Of a stretch of DNA of 64,000 bases, positions 34,561 to 41,412 are shown one piece after another (the first letter of the stretch is position 1; every line of letters begins with the position of its first letter). Where the stretch lies: assembly GCF_900187185.1 (NCBI RefSeq), contig NZ_LT906465.1, positions 1,674,001 to 1,738,000 on the forward strand. The letters run 5' to 3'. The translations under genes and the position numbers were made by a program. Below the pieces are notes generated by a model. That model saw nothing but the letters and a program-made list of their open reading frames with translations, was not told the origin of the DNA and ran no database searches. This DNA comes from Chryseobacterium taklimakanense. Its GTDB lineage: Bacteria > Bacteroidota > Bacteroidia > Flavobacteriales > Weeksellaceae.

Positions 34561-35067
34561 TTATTTTATCTCCACACAACCAACTCTGCCACCGGCATTT
34601 CCTGTAGGTTGCGTTTTGAAGTCGTCTGCCTTTGCATGGATAATTATAGATTTTCCTACAATATTTTTAGTTTCGTCAGCGCATCCGATACACCATTTGT
34701 CTGTTTTCATCACTAATCTTGCTGTACCGTTTTTATCTGCTTTCAAATTTCCCAAATCACCCGCATGGTGTTCGCCCACTCCCCATTTTCCGTGCTGGTG
34801 AGAGGTTGGGTTCCAGTGTCCGCCTGCTGAACTTCCGTCAGATGCTGAACAGTCGCCAAATTCGTGAATATGGGCAGCGTGAATACCGTTCGGATTAAGT
34901 TTATACACATTCATATCAAGTTCAACCGTTTTTCCTGTTTGGGTAAATTTTGCGGTCCCCTGGGTTTGTGTATCGCTTTTGGCGTTAATCGTATATGTTT
35001 TCGTAGTGGTGCAGGATACCGCTAATAAAGCACCTGCCGAAATAAGAGAAAGTGATAAAAGTTTCAT
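34561..35067 (-). CDS. sodC: Superoxide dismutase family protein (Cu/Zn type, lipoprotein)
   Basis: Envelope Cu/Zn superoxide dismutase, 168 residues. The signal peptide ends with a lipobox (ALLAVSCTTT). The copper/zinc ligands appear in HAAHIHEFGDCSASDG and GGHWNPTSHQHGKWGVGEHH, with a later D in the GDLGNLKADKNG region and a final histidine in IIIHAKADDF; cysteines in GDCS and GRVGCVEIK can form the conserved disulfide. It removes superoxide in the periplasm. The gene has divergent neighbours and its own terminator. Confidence 0.9.
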   Translation of the reverse strand: MKLLSLSLISAGALLAVSCTTTKTYTINAKSDTQTQGTAKFTQTGKTVELDMNVYKLNPNGIHAAHIHEFGDCSASDGSSAGGHWNPTSHQHGKWGVGEHHAGDLGNLKADKNGTARLVMKTDKWCIGCADETKNIVGKSIIIHAKADDFKTQPTGNAGGRVGCVEIK

Positions 35068-35168: not shown

Positions 35169-35198
35169 ACCATTCAGTCAAAAAAAACTACCGTTCAG
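35169..35198 (+). promoter_or_regulatory. LytTR-type binding site before the TonB receptor gene
   Basis: Direct repeats ACCATTCAG (35169-35177) and ACCGTTCAG (35190-35198), start-to-start 21 bp. This matches the published LytTR pattern of two 9-bp repeats with a 12-bp gap. The -7 element TACTTTTG (35232-35239) lies 42 bp after the second repeat start. Confidence 0.7.
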
Positions 35199-35231
35199 CC
35201 AATCTGTTTTTACCAAAGAATTTTCGCCATT

Positions 35232-35239
35232 TACTTTTG
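35232..35239 (+). promoter_or_regulatory. -7 promoter element for the TonB receptor gene
   Basis: TACTTTTG matches TAnnTTTG and lies 20 bp before the ATG at 35259. Confidence 0.6.
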
Positions 35240-35258
35240 AGGCATATTATTCGAAACA

Positions 35259-37469
35259 ATGAAAACACACTTCGCGAAAATCTGCTTTCTATTCCTGGTA
35301 ATGGCTTCTGTAGCCGGTGTGGCTCAAATAAAGATTTACGGGAAAGTTTCCTTCAAAGGAAAAGGCCTCAAAGACATCAACGTAACCCTTAAAAACACTT
35401 ACGACGGCGCAACAACCGATGAACAGGGAAACTATTCTTTTGAAACTTCGGAAAAAGGCAGCCAGACTTTGGTTTTTTCGCATCCGAAATATGTAGAGGT
35501 TGAAGAAAACATTACCATCGGAAACCACAATATTGAGAAAAATACTACGCTAAGAGAAAGCATCAGCGAAATTGATGCCGTGGTGATTACAGCCGGCGCG
35601 ATAGAAGCGAGCGACAAAAAACGGGCAACGGCAATTCTTTCGCCAATTGATATTTACACCACCGCCGGAGCCGACGGACAAATTTCTGCAGCACTGAATT
35701 ATCTTCCCGGAGTGCAGAAAGTAGGGGAGAGCGAAGGTTTATTCATCCGTGGCGGCAGCGGAACCGAGTCCAAAATCTTTATGGACGGCAGTTTGGTAAA
35801 CAATTATTTCTCGAATTCCGTGCCGGGAATTGCCGGGCGCGACCGTTTTAATACATCATTGTTCAAAGGAAATATTTTCTCAAGCGGCGGATATTCTGCA
35901 CTTTACGGGCAGGCGCTTTCCGGTGTGCTGATTTTGGAAAGCGTGGATCTGCCGGAGACAAGTTCGTATGATTTTGGGGTCTCGCCGATATTTTTAAGCG
36001 GAAGTTTTCAGAAATTAACTCAGAATAAGAATGCGTCTTTCGGGACGAGTTTAAGCTATTTCAATATGGAACTGGTGCAGAAAATCTTCAATTACAATAC
36101 CGATTTTGTTACGGCTCCCCAAGGTTTTGACGGCGATTTTAATTTCAGAATTAAAAATAAAAAAGGTGGCTTCCTAAAATATTATGGAAATTTCGACCAT
36201 TATAAAATGGCGGTGCAAAACGAAAGTCTGGAACCGGAATTCGATTTCAGCAAAGTAAATCTGAATTCAGCCAACACATCGCACAACCTTTCTTTCCGTC
36301 AAAAATTCGGTAAATATTTGCTGAATGTTGGCACGTCTTATTCTTACAACACAACCGACATAGGATTTTCAACTATTGAGAATAACGTGGAGTCTCCGGT
36401 AAATTCTATTAAAAAGGATGATAATTATGTGAATTTCAAAACTGTATTAGAAAGGAAAATCAACAAGATCAGTGCAGTTCGCGGAGGCTTCGAACTGAAT
36501 CATGCCTCGGAAAAAACGGATTTCGGGAATTTCAATAAACTTTATAGAGACCTTATCTCATCAGCATTTGCAGAAACAGATTTGGGATTCAGCAATAATC
36601 TTTCAGCAAAATTAGGTTTAAGGGCTGAACATTCTTCTTACTTCGAAAAAACCAATTTAGCGCCGCGTCTGGCGTTGGCATACCGCCTTTCCCCAAAGTG
36701 GACGAGTTCCCTCGCTTACGGAATTTTCTACCAAAATCCGGAGAGCAAATATCTGAATTCACCTGCGTCGTTAAGTTTTCAGAAAGCCGAACATTATATT
36801 TTTCAACTTCAGAGAAATTCGGAAGGCAGAAGTTTGAGGCTGGAAGCTTTTTACGAAGATTATAAAAATCTTGTAAAAACAGAAGGAAACCACGAATTTC
36901 AGACGGCAATTAGTAACAGTGGAAAGGGCTATGGAAAGGGGCTTGAGTTATTTTGGAGAGATAAAAAAACGATCAAAAATATTGATTATTGGCTGAGTTA
37001 TTCTTACCTGGATTCCAAACGAGATTATTTAAACTATCCGGTAAGTTTGAAACCGGGCTTTGCTTCGGAACACACGCTTTCGGCTGTGGCCAAAAAATTT
37101 GTAACCAATTGGAAAACAGGATTTAATCTTTCATACACTTACTCGAAGGGCCGTCCTTATTATGATATTGTTTCGCAGAACGGAGATAATATCATTCGCA
37201 ACGAAGGTCGGCTAAAAGATTATAACGCACTGAATTTCAGTTTAAATTACCTGCCGAATTTAGGCAAAAAGGATTCCAAGGCGTTTACCGTTTTGGTGTT
37301 GAGCATATCAAATATTTTAGGGAATAAAAACGTTTACGGCTATAATTTTTCCAATGACGGCTTGCGCAGTTCCGCAGTAGTTCCGCCGGTGAACACGTTT
37401 GTTTTTCTGGGTGCTTTCATCAGTTTCGGAGTGGATAAAACAAATGAGGCAATTAATAACAATCTATAA
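35259..37469 (+). CDS. TonB-dependent receptor with carboxypeptidase-like regulatory domain
   Basis: Outer-membrane receptor of 736 residues with a signal peptide (MKTHFAKICFLFLVMASVAG). Residues about 25-100 form a carboxypeptidase-regulatory-like domain (IYGKVSFKGKGLKDINVTLK). The plug follows with ...GAIEASDKKRATAILSPIDI and EGLFIRGGSGTESKIFMDGS, then a 22-strand-type barrel of alternating hydrophobic residues. No SusD gene is near, so it is probably not a polysaccharide system. The ligand is unknown. A LytTR-type site precedes its promoter, like those before the next secreted-protein gene and the 2TM operon, so it is likely controlled by the LytTR regulator at 40663. Confidence 0.9.
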   Translation: MKTHFAKICFLFLVMASVAGVAQIKIYGKVSFKGKGLKDINVTLKNTYDGATTDEQGNYSFETSEKGSQTLVFSHPKYVEVEENITIGNHNIEKNTTLRESISEIDAVVITAGAIEASDKKRATAILSPIDIYTTAGADGQISAALNYLPGVQKVGESEGLFIRGGSGTESKIFMDGSLVNNYFSNSVPGIAGRDRFNTSLFKGNIFSSGGYSALYGQALSGVLILESVDLPETSSYDFGVSPIFLSGSFQKLTQNKNASFGTSLSYFNMELVQKIFNYNTDFVTAPQGFDGDFNFRIKNKKGGFLKYYGNFDHYKMAVQNESLEPEFDFSKVNLNSANTSHNLSFRQKFGKYLLNVGTSYSYNTTDIGFSTIENNVESPVNSIKKDDNYVNFKTVLERKINKISAVRGGFELNHASEKTDFGNFNKLYRDLISSAFAETDLGFSNNLSAKLGLRAEHSSYFEKTNLAPRLALAYRLSPKWTSSLAYGIFYQNPESKYLNSPASLSFQKAEHYIFQLQRNSEGRSLRLEAFYEDYKNLVKTEGNHEFQTAISNSGKGYGKGLELFWRDKKTIKNIDYWLSYSYLDSKRDYLNYPVSLKPGFASEHTLSAVAKKFVTNWKTGFNLSYTYSKGRPYYDIVSQNGDNIIRNEGRLKDYNALNFSLNYLPNLGKKDSKAFTVLVLSISNILGNKNVYGYNFSNDGLRSSAVVPPVNTFVFLGAFISFGVDKTNEAINNNL

Positions 37470-37493
37470 GGTGATTATAACGAAAGAAGCATG

Positions 37494-37523
37494 ACGATTC
37501 AGTGACGAAATTTGACGGTTCAG
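37494..37523 (+). promoter_or_regulatory. LytTR-type binding site before the helical secreted-protein gene
   Basis: ACGATTCAG (37494-37502) and ACGGTTCAG (37515-37523), start-to-start 21 bp. The -7 element TATCTTTG (37558-37565) lies 43 bp after the second repeat start. Confidence 0.7.
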
Positions 37524-37530
37524 TTACAAA

Positions 37531-37546
37531 ATTTTCACGTGAAACA
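37531..37546. promoter_or_regulatory. Imperfect parS-like palindrome
   Basis: ATTTTCACGTGAAACA differs from TGTTTCACGTGAAACA in the first two bases only. It falls between the LytTR-type repeats and the -7 element of the next gene. Confidence 0.4.
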
Positions 37547-37557
37547 TTCATCAGAAC

Positions 37558-37565
37558 TATCTTTG
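37558..37565 (+). promoter_or_regulatory. -7 promoter element
   Basis: TATCTTTG matches TAnnTTTG, 36 bp before the ATG at 37601. Confidence 0.55.
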
Positions 37566-37600
37566 AATCAGAATTTTAAAACAACAAAAAATCAATTAAT

Positions 37601-38245
37601 ATGAAAAGATTATTCCTTGCTGCGGCTGTTGCAGCATCTACAGTGTTCGGGTTTGCACAGACCAAATTCGAAACAGCAATGACCGAAAAAGTCGCCAAAA
37701 TTGAACAGCATTTGAAAACAGACGAATTCCAAGCGCTTTCTAATGATTTCACCAGAATCGGAAATGCTGAAAAAACACAATGGCTGCCGTATTACTACGC
37801 CGCATTTGCCCAAATCCAGAAAGGAAGAATTTTGATGCGCGAACAGAAAATGTCGGAACTGGATGCTGTTGCATCTGAAGCACAAAAATCCCTGGACAAA
37901 GCCATGGAATTGAGTAAGGATAATGCCGAACTGTTCATTCTTCAAAAGATGATTCACAACCTGAAAATGATGGTGAACCCAATGGAACGCTATATGACGG
38001 AAGGCGCTCTGGGCGCCGAAAATCTCGCCAAGGCCGAAAAACAGGATCCCGCCAATCCAAGAATTACCTTACTGAAAGCAGAAGATACCTATTTTACGCC
38101 AGAGCAGTTTGGCGGAAGCAAATCCCAAGGTCTGGAACTTTTCCAGAAAGCACTGGAGCAGTTTAAAATTTACAAAACAGCATCACCACTTCATCCAAAC
38201 TGGGGAAAAGCGGAAGCGGAGTATTTCCTGGCACAGAAACCGTAA
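37601..38245 (+). CDS. Secreted helical-repeat (TPR-like) protein of unknown function
   Basis: Protein of 214 residues with a signal peptide (MKRLFLAAAVAASTVFGFAQ). The mature part is helical, with TPR-like segments such as EKTQWLPYYYAAFAQIQKGR, LDKAMELSKDNAELFILQKM and a terminal GLELFQKALEQFKIYKTASP. A role as binding or scaffold protein in the periplasm is an inference. It follows the TonB receptor by 130 bp but has its own promoter with a LytTR-type site, and ends at a strong hairpin terminator, so the two belong to one regulon rather than one operon. Confidence 0.82.
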   Translation: MKRLFLAAAVAASTVFGFAQTKFETAMTEKVAKIEQHLKTDEFQALSNDFTRIGNAEKTQWLPYYYAAFAQIQKGRILMREQKMSELDAVASEAQKSLDKAMELSKDNAELFILQKMIHNLKMMVNPMERYMTEGALGAENLAKAEKQDPANPRITLLKAEDTYFTPEQFGGSKSQGLELFQKALEQFKIYKTASPLHPNWGKAEAEYFLAQKP

Positions 38246-38266
38246 CGAAGCCAGTTTAACATGATG

Positions 38267-38294
38267 AACGGGCATTTTTCGCCCGTTTTTTCAT
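38267..38294 (+). terminator. Rho-independent terminator
   Basis: AACGGGC-atttttc-GCCCGTT stem followed by TTTTTC, 21 bp after the stop of the secreted helical protein gene. Confidence 0.85.
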
Positions 38295-38323
38295 TCGCTT
38301 TTATTTTTAGAAAAAGAACTTTT

Positions 38324-38353
38324 ACCATTCAGTCTACAAAAAATACGGTTCGG
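38324..38353 (+). promoter_or_regulatory. LytTR-type binding site before the 2TM operon
   Basis: ACCATTCAG (38324-38332) and ACGGTTCGG (38345-38353), start-to-start 21 bp. The -7-like TACCTTTA (38388-38395) lies 43 bp after the second repeat start. This suggests autoregulation of the operon that encodes the LytTR regulator. Confidence 0.65.
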
Positions 38354-38436
38354 TAAAGAACAGTTGGCTTTGGGTTTTGCGCTGAACTACCTTTATATCA
38401 TCAAAATCAAATCAATAATTAAAAATTTTAAAATAA

Positions 38437-38721
38437 ATGGAAACATGCAGCAATAGTGAAAAACTTGAACGTGCAAAAAGAAAAGTGAGAAGAATTAAAG
38501 GATTTTACATTCATGCTCTGGTTTATCTGCTTGTAAATCTGTTCATTATATTTAGCAATGGATTTGCAGAAAAGAATGGATTTGCAGATATGGACTCTTA
38601 CTACACAGCGATTTTGTGGGGGTTTGGATTGTTGGCGCACGGACTTACGGTTTTTGGATCGCAGATGATTCTGGGTGACGATTGGGAAGAAAGAAAAATT
38701 AGAGAAATGATGAACAAATAA
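38437..38721 (+). CDS. 2TM domain-containing protein
   Basis: Small membrane protein of 94 residues, first gene of a five-gene operon. It has a basic amphipathic lead (LERAKRKVRRIKGFYIHALV), two transmembrane helices (VYLLVNLFIIF and AILWGFGLLAHGLTVFG) and the closing motif DDWEERKIREMMNK. The PF13239-type 2TM domain is common in flavobacteria but has no established function. Four copies of it occur in this operon. The start METCSNSEK follows an AT-rich leader. Confidence 0.88.
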   Translation: METCSNSEKLERAKRKVRRIKGFYIHALVYLLVNLFIIFSNGFAEKNGFADMDSYYTAILWGFGLLAHGLTVFGSQMILGDDWEERKIREMMNK

Positions 38722-38758: not shown

Positions 38759-40090
38759 ATGAACAGAAAATTTTTCAGCACATTAATCTGGGTTTCATTT
38801 GGAATCAGCATTTTCATATTTGCTTTTTCCAATGGTGAGAAAACCTTGACAAACGCTTTACTGACCTTCGGAATCACAGTGATGTATACCCTCGTCATTG
38901 GAGTGGGAAACGGATTAGTGAATGATTTTCTGAGCAGGAAATTTTCCTGGGTTGAGCAAACCAGAACACGTGTCATCTACGGCATTATCGGCACAGTGCT
39001 GGCTAACGTGATCCTGGTTTTCTTCTGTAATTATATCAATTTCATAGTAATTCAGGGAAGTGATCCCACGAAGTTCTTCAGCGGAAATATGGGAATTTTT
39101 AATTGGATTACCGTGAATATCTCTCTGTTGGTTTCGGCCATTCTCCACGCCAAAAGTTTTATGGAAGAATGGAAAAAATCTGCGAAAAAAGAGGTAGTGG
39201 AACAGAAACTCATTGCAAAATCTGCCAACGCCCAGTTTGAAACCTTAAAAAATCAACTCGATCCGCATTTCTTGTTCAATTCTTTAAATGTTTTAAGTTC
39301 ATTGATTGATGAGAATCCAAATCACGCCCAAAGGTTTACGTCCTCAATGTCAAAGATATACCGTTATGTTTTGGAGCAAAAGGATAAAGAATTAGTTACG
39401 GTAGAAGAAGAGCTGGATTTTGCAAAAACCTATTGCGATTTGCTGAAAACAAGGTTCGAGGACAGCGTTAACTTTGAGTTTGAAGTGAATGAACAAGATC
39501 GAAAAGGTTTCGTCGTTCCGTTATCGCTACAGTTATTGCTGGAAAACTGCATCAAACACAATTTTGCCACATCCGTAAAACCCTTGAATATCAGAATTTT
39601 CTCAGAGAATGGATTTCTGTGCGTTGAAAATAACCTGCAACAAAGAGAAGTCAGCAAAGACCGTGAGGGAATCGGACTTTCCAATATTGTGCAGCGCTAT
39701 GCACTGATTACCGACCGAAATGTCTTCATCGAAAAATCTGAACAAAATTTCAAAGTAAAAATACCTTTACTCACCGAAAAAATAAACCTAATGACTACAC
39801 AAAATGCCACCAGTGAACAAATGGCTTACGAAAAAGCCGCAAAAAGAGTAGAAGAACTCAAAGGTTTTTACGGAAATCTGATCTCCTACTCTATTTTTAT
39901 TCCTTTCTTATTCCTGATTAACTGGAAGACGTCGCCCAATTACTGGTGGGCATTTTGGCCGATGTTGGGTTGGGGCATCGGTGTGATTTCGCATGGGATT
40001 AAAACGTTCGGAATTAGCAGCGATTGGGAAGAACGCCAAATCCGTAAGTATATGCAAAAAGAAGAAGAAAACGCCAAAAAATGGAGATAA
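38759..40090 (+). CDS. LytS/YehU-type sensor histidine kinase with C-terminal 2TM domain
   Basis: Sensor kinase of 443 residues. The N-terminus has about four transmembrane helices (residues 6-145). The His_kinase domain has LDPHFLFNSLNVLSSLI with H170 as the likely phospho-acceptor, followed by the ATP-binding half with LQLLLENCIKHN (N box) and GIGLSNIVQRY (G box). Residues about 350-443 are a fused 2TM domain (KAAKRVEELKGFY ... SSDWEERQIRKYMQK), unusual for the LytS/YehU type. No periplasmic sensor domain is visible, so the signal may be membrane-borne or come through the 2TM part. The partner regulator is at 40663. Confidence 0.9.
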   Translation: MNRKFFSTLIWVSFGISIFIFAFSNGEKTLTNALLTFGITVMYTLVIGVGNGLVNDFLSRKFSWVEQTRTRVIYGIIGTVLANVILVFFCNYINFIVIQGSDPTKFFSGNMGIFNWITVNISLLVSAILHAKSFMEEWKKSAKKEVVEQKLIAKSANAQFETLKNQLDPHFLFNSLNVLSSLIDENPNHAQRFTSSMSKIYRYVLEQKDKELVTVEEELDFAKTYCDLLKTRFEDSVNFEFEVNEQDRKGFVVPLSLQLLLENCIKHNFATSVKPLNIRIFSENGFLCVENNLQQREVSKDREGIGLSNIVQRYALITDRNVFIEKSEQNFKVKIPLLTEKINLMTTQNATSEQMAYEKAAKRVEELKGFYGNLISYSIFIPFLFLINWKTSPNYWWAFWPMLGWGIGVISHGIKTFGISSDWEERQIRKYMQKEEENAKKWR

Positions 40091-40092
40091 TC

Positions 40093-40392
40093 ATGGAAAA
40101 TAAGCAAAAACACGAGGAAATGCTTTATAAAAAAGCACAGAAAAGGGTGAAGGAAATTTCAAACTTTTACTGGTTTGTAGCCGGTTATATTATTGTTGCA
40201 ATCGTGCTGCTTTTCACGGATTACAGCAAAAATATTTTTAATTTTAATAGCGAATACATTGTTTATATGTTGATTCTGCAGGGAATTTTTCTTTTGGGTT
40301 ACGGCATTTACCTGTTTGTACCCCGACTGCACAATTGGGAAGAACGTAAAACAAGGCAACTTATGGAAAAATACAAAAACAATGGAAAATAA
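40093..40392 (+). CDS. 2TM domain-containing protein
   Basis: Protein of 99 residues from MENKQKHEEM; an ATG at 40081 would overlap the kinase stop and is less likely because the sister genes also begin with MEN or MET. KAQKRVKEISNFYWFVAGYI, a second helix (YMLILQGIFLLGYGIYLFV) and HNWEERKTRQLMEK define the 2TM module. It is the most divergent of the four copies. It overlaps the next gene by 11 bp. Confidence 0.85.
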   Translation: MENKQKHEEMLYKKAQKRVKEISNFYWFVAGYIIVAIVLLFTDYSKNIFNFNSEYIVYMLILQGIFLLGYGIYLFVPRLHNWEERKTRQLMEKYKNNGK

Positions 40393-40666
40393 TATCAAAT
40401 ACGAACAAGCTAAAAAGCGGGTGAAGCAGATCAAAGGATTTTATATTCACGCAGGAGTTTTTATACTGGTAAATGTGTTTTTGGTATGCTTAAAGTTCAT
40501 GAAACATGGGCAAATCGATTTTAATGTTTGGGGAACCAGTCTTTGGGGAGTGGGACTGGCAGCGCATGGCGCATCCGTTTTCTTGCCAAATTTTTTTCTT
40601 GGAAGAAACTGGGAGGAACGCAAAATACGCGAACTTATGGATAAACAGAAAAACTTGAAACCTTGA
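40382..40666 (+). CDS. 2TM domain-containing protein
   Basis: Protein of 94 residues, from MENNIKYEQAKKRVKQIKGF with IHAGVFILVNVFLVCL and SLWGVGLAAHGASVF as helices and RNWEERKIRELMDK at the end. It resembles the first protein of the operon most closely. The stop codon TGA shares bases with the TTG start of the response regulator (TTGA). Confidence 0.87.
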   Translation: MENNIKYEQAKKRVKQIKGFYIHAGVFILVNVFLVCLKFMKHGQIDFNVWGTSLWGVGLAAHGASVFLPNFFLGRNWEERKIRELMDKQKNLKP

Positions 40667-41412
40667 ATAGAATAAAAACCATCATCATCGAAGATGAAAA
40701 GCCGGCAGCAAGAAAACTTGAACGGATTTTGAGTTTATTTCCTGATATTGAGTTGATTGCAACCATCCATTCTGTGGAAGAGGGAATAAATTTTTTTAAA
40801 AATACTCCGCATCCTGACTTAATATTTTCTGATATTGTTCTGGGCGACGGACTTTCTTTTGATATTTTTGAAAAAATTCCGACCAGAAGTTTTATCATTT
40901 ATACCACGGCGTTCGACAATTATACCCTGAAAGCCTTCAAACTGAATTCCATCGATTATCTTTTGAAGCCCATCATGGAAGAAGACTTGAGAAACGCTCT
41001 GGAAAAGTACAAATCTTTTGTGCCGCAGGAACAGCGATATAACAATTTGAATTTCAAAGAATTAATTAAAAAAGAAAAATCATGGCTTTCCAGAATTTTG
41101 GTTAAAATCGGATACAATCTGAAAGTTTTGCAAACCAATGAAATTAGTTGTTTCTACAGCGAGAACAAAATTGTGTACGCCCGGACTTCAGAACGTTCAT
41201 TTCCCACGGATTTTACTTTGGACGAACTTCAGGAAAACCTCGATGAAAGCAAATTTTTCCGGGTGAACCGCCAGTTTGTCATCAATTTAGATTTTATCAA
41301 AAACATTCACACCTCGCCGTATTACAAAGTCGAAATGCAGTTTCAGCCGGAAGAAGAAATTACCGTGAGCCGCGAACGCGTGAAGGATTTTAAGGATTGG
41401 CTGAGCAAATAA
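40663..41412 (+). CDS. LytTR-family response regulator
   Basis: DNA-binding response regulator of 249 residues. The receiver domain has acidic pair D11-E12 (IIIEDEKPAARK), phospho-acceptor D57 (LIFSDIVLGDG) and the switch lysine in LLKPIMEEDL. The LytTR domain (about residues 145-245) has ENKIVYARTSERSFPTDFTL and NRQFVINLDFIKNIHTSPYY. The only plausible start is TTG, four bases overlapping the previous stop. Direct repeats that fit LytTR sites precede three promoters close by, including that of this operon. Confidence 0.9.
   Translation: MNRIKTIIIEDEKPAARKLERILSLFPDIELIATIHSVEEGINFFKNTPHPDLIFSDIVLGDGLSFDIFEKIPTRSFIIYTTAFDNYTLKAFKLNSIDYLLKPIMEEDLRNALEKYKSFVPQEQRYNNLNFKELIKKEKSWLSRILVKIGYNLKVLQTNEISCFYSENKIVYARTSERSFPTDFTLDELQENLDESKFFRVNRQFVINLDFIKNIHTSPYYKVEMQFQPEEEITVSRERVKDFKDWLSK

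Follow-up and report, generated by a model that had tools for sequence, protein, structure and literature searches.

The DNA analysed here is a stretch of 64,000 nucleotides (nt) from Chryseobacterium taklimakanense (NZ_LT906465.1, positions 1,674,001-1,738,000), called the window, and all coordinates are window positions. It contains three promoters preceded by paired LytTR-type repeats, which stand in front of a TonB-dependent receptor gene, a gene for a secreted protein of the HusA family, and a signalling operon that encodes a LytS-type kinase and a LytTR response regulator. The locus as a whole is likely to be best explained by a LytS/LytTR two-component system that regulates its own operon together with the genes of a Hus-like haemophore system.

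Paired repeats at three promoters

The three sites lie on one strand and within 3.2 kb. Together with their promoter elements they are:
35169..35198, + strand: LytTR-type site 1, ACCATTCAG-N12-ACCGTTCAG, preceding the TonB receptor, with ortholog sites in relatives
35232..35239, + strand: -7 element TACTTTTG, its TA 42 bp past the start of repeat 2 of site 1
37494..37523, + strand: LytTR-type site 2, ACGATTCAG-N12-ACGGTTCAG, preceding the secreted HusA-like protein
37558..37565, + strand: -7 element TATCTTTG, its TA 43 bp past the start of repeat 2 of site 2
38324..38353, + strand: LytTR-type site 3, ACCATTCAG-N12-ACGGTTCGG, preceding the signalling operon
38388..38395, + strand: -7 element TACCTTTA (TTTA, not TTTG), its TA 43 bp past the start of repeat 2 of site 3

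These are exactly the positions at which an earlier note on this DNA had placed three promoters with identical repeats. The start-to-start spacing of 21 bp holds at sites 1, 2 and 3, but the repeats are variants of one consensus and not identical. The distance of 42-43 bp that the note gave from repeat 2 to a TAnnTTTG-like -7 element also stands (42, 43 and 43 bp), except that site 3 has TTTA in place of TTTG. Two 9-bp repeats with a 12-bp gap, which it had named as the known LytTR binding form, fit the published LytTR sites (PMC6193735, PMC4227749), as does their place directly above the promoter, and Pfam identifies the downstream genes as it had described them: a TonB receptor, a secreted protein (without a Pfam family) and a 2TM/LytTR operon.

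The whole genome (2,764,880 bases) was searched by pattern. The strict pattern proposed in the earlier note, ACSRTTCRG-N12-ACSGTTCRG, has 3 matches genome-wide, all at the three promoters, and the reversed-pattern control has 0. A relaxed, promoter-coupled form (ACNNTTNRG-N12-ACNNTTNRG-N31..36-TANNTTT) recovers the same 3 matches, with 0 in the control. When 3 mismatches are allowed, the window holds just the three sites, versus 0.39 expected in shuffles. Among the extra matches in the genome with 2-3 mismatches, none of those inspected, for which a locus was at hand, has a -7 element at 42-43 bp; as the relaxed coupled pattern adds none either, further regulon members in the genome were rejected. 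The regulon predicted from these patterns is exactly three promoters in C. taklimakanense.

The sites are conserved among relatives. We scanned both strands of 80 named loci (approximately 1.6 Mb) from Kaistella, Chryseobacterium, Epilithonimonas, Halpernia, Soonwooa, Cloacibacterium and Cruoricaptor, allowing up to 2 mismatches, and found 137 matches, every one with TAnnTTT at 42 bp (84) or 43 bp (53); the reversed pattern gave 0. All but three (134/137) precede target genes, namely the histidine kinase/2TM operon (HK/2TM, 65), the TonB-dependent receptor (TBDR, 44) and the secreted protein (SEC, 25). Among the relatives, hardly any change is seen in the C of position 2, the TTC or the last G of each repeat; positions 3-4 vary, and the centre of the spacer is A-rich. 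Across 296 genomes of the family the strict pattern has matches in 55, with all reversed-pattern controls at 0, and sites at the same genes recur in many genera; the control genes around them (superoxide dismutase, mnmA, outer membrane protein and LytTR itself) have none. In a comparison of 60 family genomes, promoter-coupled sites are present in 24 of 31 with an ortholog of the regulator versus 0 of 29 without (Fisher p 7.6e-11); the single match outside the family (genome G060) is a simple repeat. The receptor of Epilithonimonas caeni keeps its site, and so does the operon, although some 47 kb separate the two sites. The small autoregulated regulon suggested by the earlier note is therefore supported from three sides: a lone intact LytTR gene lies behind site 3, the family shows co-occurrence of sites with the regulator, and the sites stay with their targets away from the operon.

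Some relatives carry the site at additional places. A fourth unit, a secreted alpha/beta hydrolase (Hydrolase_4/Abhydrolase_1) with the site 42 bp before the -7 element, is found in Epilithonimonas-type genomes and at least two others (L087, L301, L302; G029:C20:42175-42942, G008:C1:2773193-2773984); a close ortholog of this hydrolase is absent from the C. taklimakanense genome. In Chryseobacterium the signalling locus itself holds a further copy, upstream of a late 2TM gene and of the regulator (L048 8239, L050 8231, L059 8242 and most of L081-L109), so that the operon seems split into two separately autoregulated units.

The HusA-family protein and its predicted cargo

The first two units encode:
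35259..37469, + strand: TonB-dependent receptor, 736 aa, with Pfam plug and CarboxypepD_reg domains; HusB-like by position
37601..38245, + strand: secreted HusA-family protein (haemophore-like, TPR-like), 214 aa, identified by phmmer, profile and Foldseek

The protein at 37601 has no Pfam family, and its signal peptide, a hydrophobic N-terminus ending in FAQ, was read from the sequence. It matches the Porphyromonas gingivalis haemophore HusA (PG_2227, PDB 6bqs) with E 1.9e-28 in phmmer and E 3.3e-41 in a profile search. Its AlphaFold (AF2) model (pLDDT 91.5) is all-helical and TPR-like, and HusA 6bqs is the top PDB match of the model in Foldseek (TM 0.77/0.81). The "secreted helical protein" of the earlier note is this HusA homolog, an identity that had been missed there. 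A 12-row HusA alignment served for the scan of genome contigs. The haem-groove residues of HusA, L123, V124, W130 and Y164 (PMC6173696), correspond to M124, V125, Y131 and F165 here, with W or Y in some orthologs. The receptor gene adjoins the HusA-like gene as in the Hus system, and its likeness to HusB is one of position. The homology to a HusA-type haemophore offers a likely purpose for the regulon, and haem or porphyrin scavenging is fairly likely to be that purpose.

Several points weigh against a LytTR-controlled haem uptake regulon. The aromatic pocket residues of HusA are conservatively replaced in the 37601 protein (W to Y, Y to F), which could therefore bind another ligand than HusA does. 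A sequence search of the PDB with the receptor found no solved-structure relative and was discarded as a route to its substrate, and the literature searched links no LytTR regulator to P. gingivalis Hus (the paper on HaeSR, the described haemin system of that species, does not mention hus). Regarding the sites, a pattern match is absent in 7 of the 31 genomes with a regulator ortholog, which reflects either site divergence or the limits of the pattern, and since the compared loci share ancestry, the 137 sites do not count as independent and their number exaggerates the independence of the evidence.

The strongest alternative is that the regulon is real but its cargo is another hydrophobic or metal-bearing ligand, haem being specific to Porphyromonas. 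HusA has homologs throughout the free-living Bacteroidota (PMC6173696), many different ligands are bound by TPR-like folds, the groove residues differ from those of HusA, and distant family members lack the aromatic motif. On the other hand, the groove motifs LVNPxERW and YTPxQFGG are largely kept in the 37601 protein and its close orthologs, and we regard a non-haem cargo as plausible but unlikely.

Divergent from the receptor lies a Cu/Zn superoxide dismutase gene (34561-35067, - strand), whose place is kept in many relatives; site 1 faces the receptor.

The LytTR regulator and the direction of control

The signalling operon behind site 3 has, by Pfam, the order 2TM / His_kinase-2TM / 2TM / 2TM / REC-LytTR:
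38437..38721, + strand: 2TM-domain membrane protein (PF13239, E 1.1e-25)
38759..40090, + strand: LytS-type histidine kinase with four N-terminal hydrophobic segments, a His_kinase domain (H170), an N box (N263/N268) and a C-terminal 2TM domain
40081..40392, + strand: 2TM-domain membrane protein (Pfam)
40382..40666, + strand: 2TM-domain membrane protein (Pfam)
40663..41412, + strand: response regulator with REC and LytTR domains (PF00072, PF04397), whose TTG start overlaps the preceding stop; predicted binder of the three sites

The kinase domain matches PF06580 with E 2.3e-24, and H170, N263, N268 and G306 are kept in at least 95% of 40 orthologs; besides the C-terminal 2TM domain, no sensor domain was matched in Pfam. 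In the regulator, D57, K102, F199, R200 and R203 are invariant in 28 orthologs. Its residues FFRVNRQ align with FhRhHRS, the best-conserved motif of LytTR domains, in which R198, N201 and S202 of AgrA touch DNA (PMC4227749). The best NCBIfam match is BtsR, at 112 bits (below the cut-off of 246), and the LytTR structure search gave one weak match. Inside the first 2TM gene, a 14-bp perfect direct repeat, AATGGATTTGCAGA (38557-38588, 18-bp spacing), encodes a short duplicated peptide.

In the mechanism that we propose, the kinase (38759), probably together with the small 2TM proteins, would respond to a signal, most likely one connected with the envelope or with the supply of haem or porphyrin, and would phosphorylate the regulator at D57. 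A regulator dimer would occupy the two repeats of a site, whose centre would be near -61, directly above a -33 element, and would activate three sigma-A type promoters, those of the TonB receptor, of the HusA-like haemophore and of its own operon, the last by positive autoregulation. Of this chain, the sites themselves are well supported, and the steps beyond them are inferred.

The direction of control was predicted from promoter geometry. The -7 box of Flavobacterium psychrophilum lies at -12 to -5 (PMC9723704), which would put the centre of the sites here near -61. In the sites compared, a nearly invariant T, mostly followed by a second T, occurs 23 bp above the TA of the -7 element and about 11 bp below repeat 2, a position consistent with a -33 element. 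The promoter-proximal repeats of AgrA are centred near -60 (PMC4227749), and those of the LytTR regulatory systems (LRS) lie about 10 bp above -35 (PMC6193735), so a centre near -61, upstream of the -33 element, is an activator's position. As the unit behind site 3 is the regulator's own operon, positive autoregulation is predicted, and we consider activation with positive autoregulation by the LytTR regulator quite probable. It is improbable that the regulator represses or has a dual role on these sites, keeping all three units silent until a switch of the kinase: repression by AgrA is possible from a site that lies downstream of the promoter (PMC4227749), but the sites here occupy the activating position known from AgrA and LRS and do not overlap the -33 element, the -7 element or the start site.

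The three sites are very probably bound by the 40663 regulator. That a different regulator binds the repeats, with the LytTR gene as a bystander, is very improbable, because form and spacing of the repeats match LytTR sites, the 40663 protein is the only intact LytTR protein that a Pfam search found in the genome, and none of the 29 family genomes that lack a regulator ortholog has the sites. The other LytTR match in the genome (G000:C1:205383-205613) has no receiver domain and contains an in-frame TAG, and was rejected as a rival binder because only a damaged remnant of the gene is left; the genome probably once had a second LytTR regulator. Finally, the idea that the promoters are alike merely as copies left by a recent duplication, for which their closeness could speak, is refuted almost beyond doubt, since the three differ in spacer and flanks outside the 9-mers and promoter elements, and in relatives over many genera the repeats are fixed while the 12-bp spacers vary apart from the A-rich centre.

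Distribution in Bacteroidota and relation to known systems

HusA-family genes were found in 87 of 296 sampled Bacteroidota genomes, and in most of the phylum-wide loci compared a TonB receptor adjoins the HusA gene. Loci elsewhere in the class and the phylum repeat the gene order receptor, HusA, kinase, LytTR regulator, but most of them have no 2TM proteins. The core module is therefore probably old, with the 2TM proteins apparently added in this family and in Flavobacterium-like genomes. The latter, which belong to another family, have a diverged site at the receptor, ACAACTCAT-N12-ACAATTGGG, at a distance of 42 bp from the -7 box; in the de novo repeat search of distant families a TT-core filter first gave none, and this form was found in a second look. 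At class- and phylum-level loci the de novo search gave no convincing site, which points to diverged site sequences or to promoters of another kind in those groups. Tentatively, LytS/LytTR could be the ancestral phylum-wide controller of HusA-type uptake, with the added 2TM proteins acting as sensor or inhibitor in a hybrid of two-component system and LRS. The HusA-family proteins of distant Bacteroidota (L271-L290) are longer, at 250-300 aa, and several match by their C-terminal part only; their genes are still beside a TonB receptor and often beside a LytS/LytTR pair.

In the literature searched (open, with few subscription journals), we found no target set of a LytTR response regulator in Bacteroidota, no link between LytTR and HusA, and no description joining LytTR with 2TM, a TonB receptor, HusA or Bacteroidetes binding sites. 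The combination of LytTR and HusA appears new, each part being of a known kind. The analysis yields a sharply defined operator, a promoter geometry, a predicted complete regulon of three promoters with a likely purpose (haemophore uptake), and a way to approach what the uncharacterised 2TM family does. HusA-type uptake has been studied mainly in a single periodontal pathogen; the results suggest that environmental Bacteroidota broadly conserve it as a regulated module.

The system shares features with several others. Like the Hus system of P. gingivalis (haemophore HusA, PG_2227, and TonB receptor HusB), it has a secreted HusA-fold protein beside a TonB-dependent receptor, but here an adjacent LytS/LytTR two-component system with 2TM proteins would be in control. 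BtsSR and YpdAB of Escherichia coli likewise combine a LytS-type kinase, a REC-LytTR regulator and a small transporter-centred regulon; their target is a pyruvate transporter, whereas an outer-membrane receptor and a haemophore are the targets here, and the kinase bears a C-terminal 2TM domain. With the LRS (HdrRM, BrsRM) it has in common direct repeats of the 9-12-9 form some 10 bp above the promoter and an operon that includes membrane proteins (PMC6193735); positive autoregulation, predicted in our case, is a further likeness. LRS regulators lack a receiver domain and are paired with a membrane inhibitor in place of a kinase, and membership in this group was rejected because receiver domain and kinase are both present. 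The operators of AgrA in Staphylococcus aureus are also paired direct repeats, centred near -60 and placed above target promoters as well as autoregulated ones (PMC4227749); phylum and promoter type differ, and no peptide quorum-sensing genes were seen at the C. taklimakanense locus.

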